DNA of 50,195 nucleotides from Candidatus Campbelliibacteriota bacterium. Its GTDB lineage: Bacteria > Patescibacteriota > Minisyncoccia > Phycocordibacterales > CSBR16-193. The position numbers and the translations under genes were made by a program. This document shows, in pieces, positions 40,079-50,195 of this stretch. The stretch is from positions 1-50,195 of the forward strand of contig SLDR01000003.1 in assembly GCA_007125155.1 (NCBI GenBank), read 5' to 3'. The notes below the pieces were generated by a model that was given only the letters and a program-made list of their open reading frames with translations, was not told where the DNA came from and made no database searches. Within the stretch, counting starts at the first letter, position 1, and each line of letters opens with the position of its first letter.

Positions 40079-40924
40079 ATGTCCGATATGACACAGGCCA
40101 ATGAAAATGTAAATCAGACGGAGATCTATCACCCTCACAATGTTTCCGCGGACCCTCTGTTTAACATAGGTGAGTTCGTGGTGACCAACTCTCTTTTCAC
40201 TTCTTGGATAGTGGTTGTTTTTATAATTATTCTGTGTTTGTTTTTGAATAGGAGCATAAAGAAGATACCCGGAAAGATACAAAATATTTTCGAGATGATC
40301 ACGGAGAAGTTTCTGGAAATGTTTGACTCCCTGACCGGGTCCAGAGAAACCTCTGTTAAATTCTTTCCTTTCGTATTTACATTTTTTCTGTTCATACTGA
40401 TCAGCAACTGGATGGCCATTATTCCGGGGTTCGCTTCGATCGGCCAGGTCGTTGAAGCACAGGGTCAAAAGATATTCATACCCTTCACCAGAGGAGTGAT
40501 GGCCGATGTCAACACGACCTTGGCTTTGGCTCTTGTCGGTGTGACGGCCAGCCACATAATAGGAGTTTCTTATATAGGGTTTTGGAACTATATAAATAAA
40601 TTTATAAATCTGGAGGCGATGGCCGATATACCCAGAAAGATGTGGAAAGAACCCACGGTATTGCTTATAAACCCCATTAAAGTATTCACCGGATTGATAG
40701 AGATAGTCAGCGAGGTGGCCAAGGTGGCCAGTCTGTCCTTTCGTCTTTTTGGTAACATATTCGCCGGCGAAGTGCTTCTTGCCGTTGTCGCGGGTTTCTT
40801 GGCTTTCGGTCTGCCTTTGCCTTTTCTTTTCTTGGAATTACTCGTGGGTCTTATACAGGCCTTGATATTCGCTCTCTTGGTCCTTGCTTACCTGGTCATG
40901 ATGACGACCGTTCAGGAGCACTGA
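40079..40924 (+). CDS. atpB: F1Fo ATP synthase subunit a
   Basis: The stator half-channel of the membrane rotor. The 281-residue, about six-helix protein has the essential arginine in SLSFRLFGNIFAGEVLL (equivalent to E. coli R210) and LELLVGLIQALIFALLVLAYL near the end. It begins 8 nt after the AtpI/Z-like gene, with AAGGAGT upstream at slightly long spacing, one of the few core genes with even a weak ribosome site. Confidence 0.95.
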   Translation: MSDMTQANENVNQTEIYHPHNVSADPLFNIGEFVVTNSLFTSWIVVVFIIILCLFLNRSIKKIPGKIQNIFEMITEKFLEMFDSLTGSRETSVKFFPFVFTFFLFILISNWMAIIPGFASIGQVVEAQGQKIFIPFTRGVMADVNTTLALALVGVTASHIIGVSYIGFWNYINKFINLEAMADIPRKMWKEPTVLLINPIKVFTGLIEIVSEVAKVASLSFRLFGNIFAGEVLLAVVAGFLAFGLPLPFLFLELLVGLIQALIFALLVLAYLVMMTTVQEH

Positions 40925-41290
<366 letters not shown>

Positions 41291-41310
41291 AAGCGGTATT
41301 TGTTTTCAAG

Positions 41311-41346
41311 GCGACCATTTTGACCCGGCTTTCATCCGATGGTCGC
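41311..41346 (+). other. Hairpin between atpE and atpF
   Basis: GCGACCAT pairs perfectly with ATGGTCGC over a 20-nt loop. There is no T-run, so it is more likely an mRNA-stabilising 3' end for the atpE part of the message than a terminator. Confidence 0.45.
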
Positions 41347-41381
41347 GGGTCGGAGTTGAAATGAATAAACGATCGTAAAAC

Positions 41382-41906
41382 ATGGATTTATTGATAGGAA
41401 CTTTTCACATTGATTCGGGATTGATACTTGCTCAGGTATTTAATTTCTTTTTGGTTTTGACCATTCTGTATTACTTTGCCATTAGACCCTTGATCCGGAA
41501 TATGGATGAGAGAAGGGATGAGATAGAAAAAGGATTGGATGACGCCAAGAGATCGGAGGATTCACTTCGGAGAGCCAAAGAAGATTATCAAAAAGTGATA
41601 AAGGATGCTCGAAAGAAAGCCAACGATATTATCGAAGAAGCTGTCAGCAAGGGGGAATTGAAAAAAAACAAAGCGGTTGAGGATGCGAAAGAGGAAGTCG
41701 AGGCAATGATAAGAAAAGAGAGGGAGGAGCTGTTAAAGGAAAGAGAGCTCATTATAGAGAACATAAAAGAAAAGACGGCCGAGTTTGTTTCGGTTGCCGT
41801 CGAGAAGGTGATAAGGAATGAGATGGACAAAAAAAGAAACGAAGCGGTTATTAAGGATGTTGTTAAGGAGTTCGATGCTTATAAAAGAACCGTCCCGGGT
41901 AAATGA
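41382..41906 (+). CDS. atpF: F1Fo ATP synthase subunit b
   Basis: Peripheral stalk subunit. The 174-residue protein has one membrane helix at about 12-30 (LAQVFNFFLVLTILYYFAI) followed by a very long charged coiled coil (RDEIEKGLDDAKRSEDSLRRAKEDY onward). Only one b gene is present, so the stalk should be a homodimer. The stop overlaps the ATG of the next gene (ATGA). Confidence 0.92.
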   Translation: MDLLIGTFHIDSGLILAQVFNFFLVLTILYYFAIRPLIRNMDERRDEIEKGLDDAKRSEDSLRRAKEDYQKVIKDARKKANDIIEEAVSKGELKKNKAVEDAKEEVEAMIRKEREELLKERELIIENIKEKTAEFVSVAVEKVIRNEMDKKRNEAVIKDVVKEFDAYKRTVPGK

Positions 41907-42313
41907 ATTTTATGAGATATAAGCCCAAACATTACGCCGAAGCACTTTGCGATATTTTGGATTCCGCCGATAAGGACCGGTTGAACGATATTCTGGAGGG
42001 ATTTATTGAATTGGTGGCGGAAAATGGAGACATTGGAAGGATGGATGAGATAGTGGACATTTTCGGCGAAGAATTCGACAGGAGGGAGGGAGTAGTTAAA
42101 GCGAAAGTGTTTAGCTCGCATGTTATTGACAGGGATATGATCAGTGTTTTAAAAGAACATGTGGCATCAAGAACCGATGCGCTTCATGTCGATATCGATC
42201 AGGAGATCGATGAGGATGTTCTGGGGGGTATGATATTGAGTTACGGTGACAAGATCATGGATGCCAGTTTAAGGAAAGACATAAAGGAAATGGGAGAGCG
42301 TATCAGGAGTTAA
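41903..42313 (+). CDS. atpH: F1Fo ATP synthase subunit delta
   Basis: Links the b stalk to the top of F1. The 136-residue protein is shorter than usual (about 175). RYKPKHYAEALCDIL opens like other delta subunits, and DVDQEIDEDVLGGMILSYGDKIMDASLRKDIKEM is the conserved C-terminal hairpin (LGG...D...S...L). I keep the ATG that overlaps the atpF stop (ATGA); an ATG three codons later is equally possible. Confidence 0.88.
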   Translation: MNFMRYKPKHYAEALCDILDSADKDRLNDILEGFIELVAENGDIGRMDEIVDIFGEEFDRREGVVKAKVFSSHVIDRDMISVLKEHVASRTDALHVDIDQEIDEDVLGGMILSYGDKIMDASLRKDIKEMGERIRS

Positions 42314-42374
42314 ATTTTTATATCAAAGACTTTTCAAAAAGATAATTAATATAAATAAATTAAAAACTTAACAT

Positions 42375-43892
42375 ATGGCCGGATCAAAAGATCAAATAGT
42401 CGAACAATTAAAAAAACGTATCGAAGGATTCAAACCGCGAGTCGTTGAAGAGAATGTCGGAAGTGTACTGCAGGTTGGGGACGGAATAGCGAGGGTTTCG
42501 GGGTTGTCCGAAGCCATGTCTTCGGAGGTGATACGATTTGAAACTTCCGCCGGAGAAAGCATTTACGGTGTGGTGTTGAACCTGGAGGAAGACGAGGTGG
42601 GCGCCATAGTTTTAGGTGACAGTTCGGCCATAAAGGAAGGTGATAGGGTGGTGAGGGAGAACAGAATACTCGACGTACCGGTAGGGGAAGGTGTTATCGG
42701 AAGAGTCTTGGACCCTATGGGTAATTCAGTTGACGGAAAAGGAAAGATCTCATCCAAAGAAAGCGGTCCGATAGAGAAGATAGCTCCCGGGGTAATAGAG
42801 AGAGCCTCGGTTAATACACCTTTGCAAACCGGTATAAAAGCCATAGATTCGATGGTTCCGATCGGGAGAGGTCAGCGTGAGCTGATAATAGGTGACAGAC
42901 AGCTTGGAAAAACAGCAATTGCAATAGACACGATAATCAATCAAAAAGGAGAGAATGTTAAGTGTGTATACGTGGCTATAGGCCAAAAAGAGTCCAAAAT
43001 AGCCGGTATTGTTTCAAAACTTGAGGAACATGGAGCTATGGAATATACCACTGTGGTTTTGGCCGGGGCAAGCGATCCGGCGTCAACGGTATTCATCGCG
43101 CCTTATGCCGGTTGCACCATTGCGGAATATTTTCTTGATAAAGGAGAGGATGTTCTCATTGTGTATGATGATCTTTCCAAGCATGCGGTCGCTTACCGTG
43201 AGATATCCTTGCTTCTAAGGAGACCGCCCGGAAGAGAGGCGTATCCCGGTGATGTGTTTTACCTTCATTCACGCCTCCTTGAAAGAGCCTGCAAGTTAAG
43301 CGATAAGCACGGTGGAGGATCGATAACGGCATTGCCAATAATCGAGACCCAGGCGGGCGATGTTTCCGCATATATCCCCACCAACGTTATTTCGATCACC
43401 GACGGCCAGATATATCTCGATAGCCAGCTTTTTTATAAAGGTAACCGACCGGCTATAGATGCGGGTAACTCCGTATCCCGAGTGGGTGGAGATGCACAGC
43501 TTAAGATAGTAAAGAAGGTTGCGGGAAAGATGAGGCTTGAAGCGGCACAGTATCGTGAGTTGGCCGCCTTTACCCAATTCGGTTCCGATATAGACAAAGA
43601 GACCAGAGAGAAGCTGGATAGAGGTGAAAGATTGACGGAGATATTGAAACAGGATCAATATTCTCCACTGGATGTTTCCAAGCAGGTAATTATTTTTTAC
43701 GCATTGGTGAACGGTTATCTCGACGATGTGGAAAGGTCCAAGGTCAGGGACTTTGAAAAAGGACTTTATGAATTTGTTGAAAACAACTCCCCTGAGATCT
43801 TGGAAGAGATAAAAAGCAAGGCTGATCTGGATGAAAAGTTGGAAGACGAGATAAAGGATGCGATAGGGTCATACAAGAGTACTTGGGCATGA
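42375..43892 (+). CDS. atpA: F1Fo ATP synthase subunit alpha
   Basis: Non-catalytic nucleotide-binding subunit, 505 residues. P-loop GDRQLGKTA near residue 173 (Leu replaces the usual Thr of GDRQTGKTA), VYVAIGQK, the [42 protein letters not shown] block, and the C-terminal helical domain. It begins 61 nt after atpH without a Shine-Dalgarno sequence. Confidence 0.97.
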
Positions 43893-43924
43893 TTTGCACC
43901 AATGATGTATTTGAATAAAAAGAT

Positions 43925-44884
43925 ATGAGTGGTACAAAAGAAATATTAAGGAGAAAAAGAGGAATAGAGAATACTCAGAAAATTACCAAGGCCATGGAAA
44001 TGGTCGCGGCGACCAAAATGAAGAGGGCTGTGGATGCTGTATTAAAGACCAGGAGATACTCCGAACTGGGTTGGATGACGGTCTCGAACATAGCGGGGAC
44101 ATTTGACGGTAAAGAAATAATACACCCTTTTTTTTCACCGATGGGAGAAAAACCTCAGAAGATGGATGTAATTTTAATAACCACAAACCGTGGTCTTTGC
44201 GGGGGATTTAACTTCAACGTTGTTAATAAAATGCATCAATTCATACAGCAATATAAAAAAGAGGTGGATGAAGGTTTGAGTGTGGAGTTGAATGTTATGG
44301 GAAAAAAGGGTTACATAGCCAACAGGTATTACGGATATGAAATCAAGAGGGAATTTCCCAAAGAGGATATAATAACCGAATTTGAAGATGTTATGCCGGT
44401 GGCTTGGGCGGTCATGGACGGTTTCTTAAGAGGAGAGTCTGATATGGTTTATATCGCTTATACCGACTACGTGAGTTCCGCGAGGCAGTTTCCAAGAATG
44501 AAAAGACTTTTACCCATCATTACTCTGGAGAAGGATGAACATTTGGGAGAAACCGAAAGCTATTTTAATGTGAATGGGGATTCCGAAGCGGATATAGTTA
44601 ACGGTAATGGGCTTAAGAAAGCGGAGTATCTTTTCGAGCCTGATCCCAAGGCGGTATTGGCGGATATTCTGCCTCGTCTGATAGAGACTCAGATCTTTCA
44701 AGCTCTGCTCGAGTCTAACGCTTCCGAGCACAGCGTCCGGATGTCGACAATGCATCAAGCCAACGAGGCCGCCGGTGAGATGATAGAGGAACTTGATCTG
44801 ACATACAATAAAGCCAGGCAGTCCGGTATCACAAATGAGATCTCGGAGATATCTGCGGGTGTCAACGCGTTGGCTCAAGAGTAA
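43925..44884 (+). CDS. atpG: F1Fo ATP synthase subunit gamma
   Basis: The central rotating shaft. The 319-residue protein opens with RRKRGIENTQKITKAMEMVAATKMKRA and closes with LLESNASEHSVRMSTMHQANEAAGEMIEELDLTYNKARQSGITNEISEI, the two coiled-coil helices that fill the F1 core. TTNRGLCGGFN is the other family landmark. It is about 30 residues longer than E. coli gamma, with the extra part between 200 and 235. Confidence 0.95.
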   Translation: MSGTKEILRRKRGIENTQKITKAMEMVAATKMKRAVDAVLKTRRYSELGWMTVSNIAGTFDGKEIIHPFFSPMGEKPQKMDVILITTNRGLCGGFNFNVVNKMHQFIQQYKKEVDEGLSVELNVMGKKGYIANRYYGYEIKREFPKEDIITEFEDVMPVAWAVMDGFLRGESDMVYIAYTDYVSSARQFPRMKRLLPIITLEKDEHLGETESYFNVNGDSEADIVNGNGLKKAEYLFEPDPKAVLADILPRLIETQIFQALLESNASEHSVRMSTMHQANEAAGEMIEELDLTYNKARQSGITNEISEISAGVNALAQE

Positions 44885-44911
44885 ATAACCTGAATTGTTC
44901 ATGAAATTTAG

Positions 44912-46399
<1,488 letters not shown>

Positions 46400-46408
46400 T
46401 ATTTTAGA

Positions 46409-46855
46409 ATGTCTTCGGAAAGAAAAATAATAAAGTTTGAAATAACGACACCGGAGAGAACGGTTCTGACGGATAATATAATCAAACTCACCGTACCGAC
46501 CAAAAAAGGGGAGATAACGGTTTTACCCGATCATATTCCCATCGTCGCCAGTTTAATGCCCGGAGTATTGGAAATAACCGATGAGAAAGAGAACCTTGAG
46601 GTTGTGGCCGTGTCAGGGGGTTTCTTGGCGGTAATGCCTGAAAGCAAAGTGGTCATATTGGCCGATACCGCCGAGAGGGCTCCCGATATTGATGCTGAGA
46701 AGGCCGAAGAAGCCAGAAGGGTGGCCGAGGAGGAAAGGGAAAGGCAAAAGACCGAGCAGTTCGACACCAAGAGGTTCGCTGATGTCAATACAAGAATATC
46801 AAAGGAGCTTGCTCGCGAAAAAGCCGTCGGTAAATGGAGGAAGATAAAAAATTGA
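46409..46855 (+). CDS. atpC: F1Fo ATP synthase subunit epsilon
   Basis: Rotor-foot and inhibitory subunit, 148 residues. The beta-sandwich carries KFEITTPERTVLTDNIIKLTVPTKKGEITVLPDHIPIVASLMPG, and the C-terminal part is a long charged helix pair (AEEARRVAEEERERQ onward). It ends the complete operon; no terminator is evident in the next 130 nt. Confidence 0.92.
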   Translation: MSSERKIIKFEITTPERTVLTDNIIKLTVPTKKGEITVLPDHIPIVASLMPGVLEITDEKENLEVVAVSGGFLAVMPESKVVILADTAERAPDIDAEKAEEARRVAEEERERQKTEQFDTKRFADVNTRISKELAREKAVGKWRKIKN

Positions 46856-46991: not shown

Positions 46992-47381
46992 ATGGGCACA
47001 TCCGTTGATGATGCGAGGTGTGGCAAGGTAAGATCGGAGTACCAGGTCAGCTTCAAACACCTCGAAAGAGCCAAGGAGGTTCAAGGGAAAGGTATGGTGG
47101 TCTTTGTCAGGTTTAGTAAACTCCCCTCGCTCATAAAGGAAATTAGAGGAAGAAAGATCTTGTATCAAAGTCCGGTCGGTGTTGTTCCAAACCGAGATTA
47201 CAGTGTGGTTTACCTCATTCCGATGGAAGACATGGAAAAGCTGAGAACGGCGAGCCTGAACGGCATCAAATTCTATGAGATATTGCCAAGACCTTGTTTT
47301 TGTGCAAAAAAGGAGGAAAAACCTCACTACCTTCTAACCCTTGCAAGTAGAGGCCTTTATTTGAAAGAGATCGATCCTTAA
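46992..47381 (+). CDS. Unknown small soluble protein with strong ribosome site
   Basis: A 129-residue protein with no membrane helix and no signal peptide. The central part alternates hydrophobic and charged residues (GKGMVVFVRFSKLPSLIKEIRGRKILYQSP, then RDYSVVYLIPMEDMEKL), consistent with a small alpha/beta fold; three cysteines, two in RPCFCAKK. I know no family for it. AAGGAGG ends 5 nt before the ATG, and a terminator follows, so it is an independent unit. Its initiation differs from the SD-less atp genes next to it. Confidence 0.55.
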   Translation: MGTSVDDARCGKVRSEYQVSFKHLERAKEVQGKGMVVFVRFSKLPSLIKEIRGRKILYQSPVGVVPNRDYSVVYLIPMEDMEKLRTASLNGIKFYEILPRPCFCAKKEEKPHYLLTLASRGLYLKEIDP

Positions 47382-47385
47382 ACGG

Positions 47386-47411
47386 AAAAACGCCGATACG
47401 TCGGCGTTTTT
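47386..47411 (+). terminator. Terminator after the unknown small protein
   Basis: ACGCCGA-TACG-TCGGCGT with flanking A5 and T5, starting 4 nt after the stop codon. Confidence 0.85.
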
Positions 47412-47428
47412 AATATATCAGGCCCTTT

Positions 47429-47783: not shown

Positions 47784-48803
47784 ATGAAAACCTTATCTTC
47801 ATTGCTCATACCTTCTGTCATTGTCCTTCTGTTGATGGTGATTCAATTTTATGAAGGGAATAGACAAGACAGATCGGCAATGATGGAAGAGGCAAGGATG
47901 GAATTTGAGTTACTGTTGGAAAACCCCTATGGTGCGAGCGCTTACTCGAGCAGGGTTCAAGAAAAAGTCGACAAAGGACTTTGGACCTGGAAGGAATTGG
48001 GATTCACACGCGAAGATCTTTTCGATCGGGAACGCTTGGCAAACATCACTGTTGCCAAAATAAACTTTGAAAAGATGATAATTTATCCCTATGACTCGAT
48101 GTTACATTCCCAAAATATTCATAGGTTGATGGAAAGAGAAGGTTTGACTTGGGAAGATGTCGGATTCACTTCAGAAGGCTTGATCGAGCGAATGAGAGTA
48201 GCCAGGATCGAGACAGCAAAGCTTTATTTCGGAAGGATCCCTTATATACCTTCAAGAGCGGAATATTACGCTCATACGGTACTTGAGATAATTGAGAGCG
48301 ATGATGTTACATACGAAGATGTCGGATTCACTTTCGCAGATGTTGTTTATCGTATCGCGATCTTCAGAGATCGGAATTTCTCCCCCTTGGGAATCGAAGA
48401 AGGATCTGAACCGAGTCCGGGTGATATCGTTGATAAAGGCAGGATGACAAATGTCCAAAAGGCAATAGACAGTTTTGAATCGATGTTGACCTATCCGTTT
48501 ATCGTGGAAGCCTATGCTGATGTTATCTATGAGATGATAGAGAGTGGCGATGTTACATGGGAAGAGGTCGGATTCACTTCAGGTGATGTCAGGGAGCGAA
48601 AGAAGTTCATTAAGAAGGAAAACGTGGAGCGTTATTTTAATTTGATGCCGATATTACCTTCAAGAGCTGAACGTTTTTCTGAACGTATCCATGAAATAAT
48701 CGAGAGCGATGATGTTACATGGGAAGAGGTCGGATTCACTTCCGCGGATGTCATTGAGCGTAAAAGGCTGTCTTTATCCTTGATCAAAGATGGGATGCTC
48801 TAG
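47784..48803 (+). CDS. Membrane-anchored protein with five ~53-residue repeats (unknown)
   Basis: The 339-residue protein has one N-terminal hydrophobic helix (about 5-22) and then five copies of a unit of about 53 residues. Each unit is helical and ends in a TWEEVGFTSxDVxER-like signature: TWKELGFTREDL, TWEDVGFTSEGL, TYEDVGFTFADV, TWEEVGFTSGDV, TWEEVGFTSADV. A spacer of about 25 residues (GIEEGSEPSPGD) splits units 3 and 4. Units 3-5 are very similar even in DNA, so expansion is recent. I know no family with this repeat. A strong AGGAGG site supports the start, and the ~320-nt leader may control it. Confidence 0.7.
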   Translation: MKTLSSLLIPSVIVLLLMVIQFYEGNRQDRSAMMEEARMEFELLLENPYGASAYSSRVQEKVDKGLWTWKELGFTREDLFDRERLANITVAKINFEKMIIYPYDSMLHSQNIHRLMEREGLTWEDVGFTSEGLIERMRVARIETAKLYFGRIPYIPSRAEYYAHTVLEIIESDDVTYEDVGFTFADVVYRIAIFRDRNFSPLGIEEGSEPSPGDIVDKGRMTNVQKAIDSFESMLTYPFIVEAYADVIYEMIESGDVTWEEVGFTSGDVRERKKFIKKENVERYFNLMPILPSRAERFSERIHEIIESDDVTWEEVGFTSADVIERKRLSLSLIKDGML

Positions 48804-49141: not shown

Positions 49142-49627
49142 ATGAAAAGATGGGTCATTCTAATTGCCTTTCTGGCGCTTGTTTTGAGCGGGTGCCAACA
49201 CGGATCCGGATCAGGGCATACCGTCGGCGGAGCCGCTTTAGGCGGGATCGCCGGAGGGGTCATAGGTTCTCAGATCGGTAAAGGTAGCGGTCAGACCGCC
49301 GCCATTATCGGCGGGACGCTTGCCGGCGCCGCATTGGGCGCTTATATCGGGAGTTACATGGACAGGATGGATAGGATGGACAGAAAGCGGATGGCTGAGG
49401 CGCTGGAGACGAAACCGTCCGGCGCCACATCAGAGTGGTATAATCCCGATACAGAAACGGGATATTCGGTCACCCCGACAAGAACCTTTAAGGAATCCCC
49501 GAAGGAAGAAGCCCCCGACAGATACTGCAGGGAGTACACCACCGAGGTTAAGATCGGTGGCGAGACTGAAAAGGCCTTCGGAACCGCTTGCCGTATGGAA
49601 GACGGCACGTGGGAGATAGTGAACTAA
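49142..49627 (+). CDS. Glycine-zipper lipoprotein, 17-kDa surface antigen-like
   Basis: A 161-residue lipoprotein precursor: signal helix with lipobox LSGC (Cys18), then a glycine-zipper pair of helices (GGAALGGIAGGVIGSQIGKGSGQTAAIIGG and on, about 28-70), an MDRMDRMDRKR linker, and a C-terminal domain with YCREYTTEVKIGGETEKAFGTACRMEDGTWEIV. That C-terminal pattern and the zipper belong to the Rickettsia 17-kDa antigen-type family, typical of Gram-negative outer membranes. CPR cells have no classical outer membrane, so the gene may be transferred. AGGAGG lies 6 nt before the ATG. The encoded MDR triplet repeat is near-perfect in DNA. Confidence 0.8.
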   Translation: MKRWVILIAFLALVLSGCQHGSGSGHTVGGAALGGIAGGVIGSQIGKGSGQTAAIIGGTLAGAALGAYIGSYMDRMDRMDRKRMAEALETKPSGATSEWYNPDTETGYSVTPTRTFKESPKEEAPDRYCREYTTEVKIGGETEKAFGTACRMEDGTWEIVN

Positions 49628-50074: not shown

Positions 50075-50195
50075 AAATAACGAGCGAAGCGAATATATTT
50101 TTGTAGGACCCCGACAGCTTGTCTGTCGGGGTAAATAACGAGCGAAGCGAATATATTTTTGTAGGACCCCGACAGCTTGTCTGTCGGGGTAAATA
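50075..50195 (+). repeat. 58-bp tandem repeat with internal hairpin, cut by the window edge
   Basis: Units 50075-50132 and 50133-50190 are identical; five more bases begin a third. Each has CGAGCGAAGCGAATATA and a perfect 10-bp hairpin (ACCCCGACAG / CTGTCGGGGT). It starts 3 nt after tRNA-Ala. The array could continue beyond the window, or it may be where an assembly stopped. Confidence 0.85.

Follow-up and report, generated by a model that had tools for sequence, protein, structure and literature searches.

The locus and its repeat protein

The stretch of DNA analysed here, called the window throughout (50,195 nucleotides, contig SLDR01000003.1 of a Candidatus Campbelliibacteriota bacterium), carries an open reading frame of 339 codons plus stop, preceded by a strong ribosome-binding site (aaaggaggaggtcATG) (Table 1). 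Its product has a single hydrophobic segment, situated at the N-terminus (Kyte-Doolittle mean of 2.43 for its 19 aa and of 2.31 for the segment of the orthologue described below), followed by five tandem units. A preliminary description of this DNA had recognized the five units behind a membrane anchor, which our analysis retains, but had given the unit about 53 residues: the threonine of the TW/TY pair falls at residues 68, 122, 176, 258 and 312, and the unit length is therefore exactly 54 aa, a linker of 28 aa being inserted between units 3 and 4. Nor do the units end in TWEEVGFTSxDV, as had been proposed, since the motif occupies unit positions 36-47 and is followed by about seven further helical residues. 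The internal similarity of the five units is far above that of within-unit shuffles (summed BLOSUM62 score of 890 versus -480 +/- 48, z ~28), and no second copy of the gene was found in its own genome.

An orthologue of 332 aa, with 50% protein identity, is encoded by a congeneric Candidatus Campbellbacteria MAG (G001). Its five units match those of the window protein in order, with a linker of 24 aa at the matching place, and its gene likewise lies downstream of atpC and of a small ORF (128 aa; 129 aa in the window) and upstream of a gene for a glycine-zipper lipoprotein, the G001 locus having one additional small gene. When the five units of the window protein (W1-W5) and those of the orthologue (G1-G5) are taken together, F9, P16, T36, F42 and T43 never vary, and W37, G41 and D46 are at least 90% conserved. 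Cysteine is absent from both anchored proteins.

The F-type ATP synthase operon of the window comprises the genes of subunits a, c, b, delta, alpha, gamma, beta and epsilon. In two genomes of the same family no epsilon subunit was found, and the operon may therefore be absent from them. A probable intrinsic terminator, absent from the list of a consensus terminator scan, probably sets the repeat gene apart from the ATP synthase operon. We rejected a link to ATP synthase, as the repeat gene lies 0.9 kb past atpC, beyond the probable terminator, and has unrelated neighbours in other lineages. The small ORF conserved beside the repeat gene matches nothing in Pfam or NCBIfam. Glycine-zipper lipoproteins of the Rick_17kDa_Anti kind are usually tied to outer membranes; here one is encoded in a candidate-phylum genome. 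At the contig end, beside a tRNA-Ala gene, a 58-bp sequence is repeated perfectly in tandem (two copies), which is probably the reason for the assembly break.

Table 1. Coordinates of the repeat gene, its parts, neighbouring features and relatives in other genomes
Feature	Sequence	Position	Strand	Basis or remark
F-type ATP synthase operon	window	40079-46855		eight subunit genes
129-aa ORF	window	46992-47381		conserved in G001
Probable intrinsic terminator, upstream of repeat gene	window	47388-47412	+	stem AAAACGCCGA/TCGGCGTTTT, then T-rich; -14.8 kcal/mol
Repeat protein gene	window	47784-48803	+	open frame, ribosome-binding site, orthologue in G001
Hydrophobic segment, probable signal anchor (residues 4-22)	window	47793-47849	+	LSSLLIPSVIVLLLMVIQF; hydropathy, topology inferred
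Unit 1 (residues 33-86)	window	47880-48041	+	
Unit 2 (residues 87-140)	window	48042-48203	+	
Unit 3 (residues 141-194)	window	48204-48365	+	
Linker (residues 195-222)	window	48366-48449	+	poorly conserved in orthologue
Unit 4 (residues 223-276)	window	48450-48611	+	also in two-unit model
Unit 5 (residues 277-330)	window	48612-48773	+	most conserved unit, 69% identical to orthologous unit; also in two-unit model
Glycine-zipper lipoprotein	window	49142-49627		Rick_17kDa_Anti, 17kDa_Anti_2; conserved in G001
58-bp tandem repeat, two copies	window	50075-50195		AAATAACGAGCGAAGCGAATATATTTTTGTAGGACCCCGACAGCTTGTCTGTCGGGGT; contig end
G200 twin gene, first	L024	6685-7239		184 aa, three units, no hydrophobic anchor
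G200 twin gene, second	L024	8698-9249		183 aa, three units, no hydrophobic anchor
G993 relative	L055	4633-5334		233 aa, four units

Predicted fold of the unit and of its motif

Structural prediction of the array had been suggested in the preliminary description, and AlphaFold2 returned helical repeats that no solved solenoid matches significantly. With the two orthologues as input, the full-length model reached a pLDDT of 83.3 and a pTM of 0.66, and a two-unit piece predicted from six alignment rows, in the form of helical hairpins, reached 94.7 and 0.83. Helices alternate regularly in both of these confident models; pLDDT falls below 50 at residues 197-215, within the linker, and the overall curvature is uncertain because the full-length pTM is modest. 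According to the models, each repeat would consist of a long helix of about 22 aa that crosses the unit boundary, a second one of about 16 aa and a short one of four residues, and the array would probably stack as an alpha-solenoid-like rod.

Predicted helices begin at residues 259 and 266, immediately after T258 and T265, with E261 and D268 at the third helix positions. In the model, TWEEvGFTseD thus reads as two successive helix-capping boxes or turns, that is, a structural knuckle (T-W-E-E-V-G-F-T-S-x-D-V) in which T36 and E39 would cap the short helix and T43 and D46 the long one. Such an arrangement would account for the invariance of T36, F42 and T43 and the near-invariance of W37 and D46; the side chains of W37 and F42 are probably packed in the core. 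A DNA-binding helix-turn-helix was rejected as an account of the motif, its first helix having only four residues in both models.

Relatives in the class and the side of the membrane

The distribution of the repeat was addressed with two successive profiles, matches to sequences already within a profile being circular and left out of the counts. The first, built from the ten units of the window protein and G001 and searched in 397 genomes of the order, retrieved genome G200 (per-genome E of 1.4e-8), with its twin genes of three units each. The second, built from the six G200 units and one G001 unit and searched in 384 genomes of the class, retrieved G993 (2.2e-7), G934 (2.3e-4) and G1085 (2.5e-4). 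The G993 protein has four units at exactly 56-aa spacing with 71-78% DNA identity between them, and its first two units are identical in DNA over a long stretch of the motif half; this array looks recently homogenized or duplicated. The proteins of G934 and G1085 (143 and 154 aa) have two units each, their link to the others being weaker because many genomes were searched, and the repeat protein is present in two of the four genomes of their genus. A 69-aa ORF with a single unit in G372 is a tentative relative. Matches in seven other genomes (G391, G034, G351, G436, G610, G685 and G754; per-genome E of 0.002-0.007 over 15-35 residues) were set aside as chance matches, with about 400 genomes per sample, and an earlier profile found no further credible member in a phylum-wide sample of 380 genomes. 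The G993 gene, which encodes a soluble relative, sits after a sigma factor gene, and the G200 twins flank a peptidase E-like gene, as though a segment had been duplicated. Neighbouring genes are different in every lineage and hence imply no partner.

We define the 54-aa TWEELGFT family by tandem units of about 54-60 aa in which a [TSN]W-x-x-[LV]-G-[FVIT]-T-x-x-[DE]-like motif follows an A..I...v..G helix. It comprises the window protein and its G001 orthologue (five units), the G200 twins (three each), G993 (four) and G934 and G1085 (two each). The profile search proposed in the preliminary description has led to a handful of further genomes in the class and to no characterized family, and in the collections searched the repeat is undescribed, rare and patchy, and so far found only in this class of candidate-phylum bacteria. 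One may wonder whether the likeness to the units of G993, G934, G1085 and G372 is instead a convergence on a common helix-capping motif, which would restrict the family to this genus plus perhaps G200: little is common beyond the motif and its preceding helix, the per-genome E values of G934, G1085 and G372 are only 2e-4 to 5e-4 with about 400 genomes searched, and assorted PHROG and Pfam models weakly match the same core. We consider this unlikely, given that the G200 and G993 matches are strong, tandem and of similar unit length (54-58 aa), and that hhalign scores of the ten original units against G993 (35.7), G934/G1085 (47.5) and G200 (70.7) stand well above column-shuffle maxima of 15.6-17.1 (100 shuffles per comparison).

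All relatives outside the genus, the tentative G372 protein included, are devoid of anchor or signal. The N-terminal anchor is an addition seen only in the window's genus; a surface location is thus not intrinsic to the repeat, and a surface role rests on the anchor. Proteins that begin with positive charges followed by a single N-terminal hydrophobic segment normally adopt an N-in/C-out topology, and helical repeat arrays of this kind usually serve as binding scaffolds. In both species there is more positive charge on the N-terminal side of the segment, and hydrophobicity and charge suggest that the protein is probably of type II, tethered outside the membrane. The variable helix faces would most likely be binding sites for other molecules (partner proteins, or the surface of a host or neighbour), the C-terminal units being under the strongest constraint. 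It seems reasonable to argue, with somewhat better than even confidence, that the gene encodes a type II anchored array of five alpha-helical repeats, solenoid-like in its stacking, which serves as a binding scaffold. Conversely, the repeats may face the cytoplasm (N-out) or form an adaptor on the inner membrane face that organizes soluble partners, the anchor being a lineage-specific addition to an originally cytoplasmic scaffold. The anchorless relatives, the cysteines that all of them except G993 contain, which fits the cytoplasm, and the small charge bias around the hydrophobic segment of the 339-aa protein speak for such an arrangement; the usual orientation of a single N-terminal segment after a positive start and the lack of cysteine in both anchored proteins speak against it, and we regard it as the lesser prospect. 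Returning to the type II scaffold, the attachment or binding at the cell surface put forward in the preliminary description is possible for this protein by virtue of its anchor and, in view of the anchorless relatives, is not readable from the repeat.

Age of the array and comparison with known systems

In a tree of the ten units each unit pairs with its orthologous counterpart (W1-G1, W2-G2, W3-G3, W4-G4 and W5-G5; support 0.64-0.99), which places the origin of the five-unit array before the divergence of the two species, whose versions of the protein are 50% identical. Between the two proteins dN is 0.39 and dS 1.61 (dN/dS ~0.24), indicating purifying selection; constraint is strongest on unit 5 (dN 0.20) and absent from the linker (dN 1.01). 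The preliminary description had held that a fixed copy number in all relatives would count against its view of the array. From the sequences available, copy number is fixed in the window's genus (five in both genomes), yet it is 2, 3, 4 or 5 between lineages.

Three units had been described as close at the DNA level, which applies to their motif cores: units 3, 4 and 5 are 77-88% identical over codons 29-47, but only 56-66% over the whole unit and 45-56% over the first 28 codons. The stretch GATGTTACATGGGAAGAGGT, reported for two units, is indeed present in units 4 and 5, within 32 identical nucleotides. Where the same amino acid occupies a core position, the codon is also the same in 35/44 cases (0.80) in W3-5 and 32/43 in G2-4, versus 28/57 (0.49) between orthologous units and 0.39 predicted from codon usage; these pairs are not independent, and the comparison, strong as it is, yields no formal probability. 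The spelling of the motif is genome-specific, GATGTTACA in units 3-5 of the window and GACGTGACA in units 2-4 of G001. Because near-identity of the DNA does not extend beyond the motif core and synonymous sharing is greater within a genome than between orthologous units, the pattern points to local homogenization, probably by short-tract gene conversion acting on the motif of an old array within each genome, and not to fresh duplication. The recent expansion proposed in the preliminary description, read as that of an adhesin whose units were amplified by slippage or unequal crossing-over to diversify surface binding, can call on the 32-nt identity of units 4 and 5 and the motif codons common to units 3-5, and is nevertheless very improbable given that five units, linker and order are all kept in a species at 50% identity, that orthologous units pair in order, that the first 28 codons have diverged and that synonymous sharing is limited to the core, as fits gene conversion. 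Near-identical repeat DNA therefore need not signal recent expansion.

It is tempting, if decidedly tentative, to combine these elements into an uncatalogued helical repeat fold private to this class of ultra-small bacteria, with a copy number set by lineage and a core kept uniform by short-tract gene conversion, which one genus has anchored as a surface contact protein. An undescribed helical repeat is added to a poorly annotated candidate-phylum proteome, in an array whose copy number is fixed within a genus and different between lineages and whose homogenization is limited to a structural motif; the consensus allows others to find members and to ask whether contact is the task of the anchored protein.

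The preliminary description had matched the motif to no known repeat, and curated families and solved structures agree. The best Pfam match of the window protein, Phage_TTP_17, reached 18.5 bits for a cut-off of 27, NCBIfam gave no match, and 17 single units searched against Pfam gave nothing better than E 0.045. UBA_3 passed its cut-off (25.4 versus 20.4) in one G200 relative only, over 35 residues, and not in the window protein. Pfam signatures of TPR (34-aa) and HEAT (~40-aa) repeats were not listed at E up to 10 for the protein or up to 1 for units and relatives. Weak PHROG and Pfam matches (tail tube, major tail, DeaD dimerization) cover some 20-40 residues of the motif core at low scores and were rejected, as was a 17-residue chance match of the pattern TW[EK][ED][VL]GFT in Acetobacter estunensis. 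The whole protein had no relative in genome-contig and viral-contig collections, nor did tblastn against phages find one. Sequence searches of the PDB gave no credible match, Foldseek against the PDB no significant match with either model, and Foldseek of the full model against viral models nothing.

Among individual structures, a short stretch of an acyl carrier protein (NTFKELGFDSIDVIDL, PDB 1vku) resembles the motif (E 0.54, 22 columns), by chance or as a convergent capping motif. The designed helical repeat DHR4 (PDB 5cwb), built of generic helical hairpin repeats, is the top Foldseek match of the two-unit model (E 0.6, TM to query 0.21) and the third of the full model, a generic resemblance that does not make it a relative. 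The two-unit model has no Foldseek PDB match below E 0.6 and a best TM to query of 0.39. A structural analogy exists with the alpha-solenoid class as a whole (TPR, HEAT), which likewise consists of tandem all-helical units, here predicted to form an array and likely a binding scaffold; no Pfam repeat model fits the window repeat, which differs from that class by its 54-aa unit with a W-E-E-x-G-F-T knuckle.
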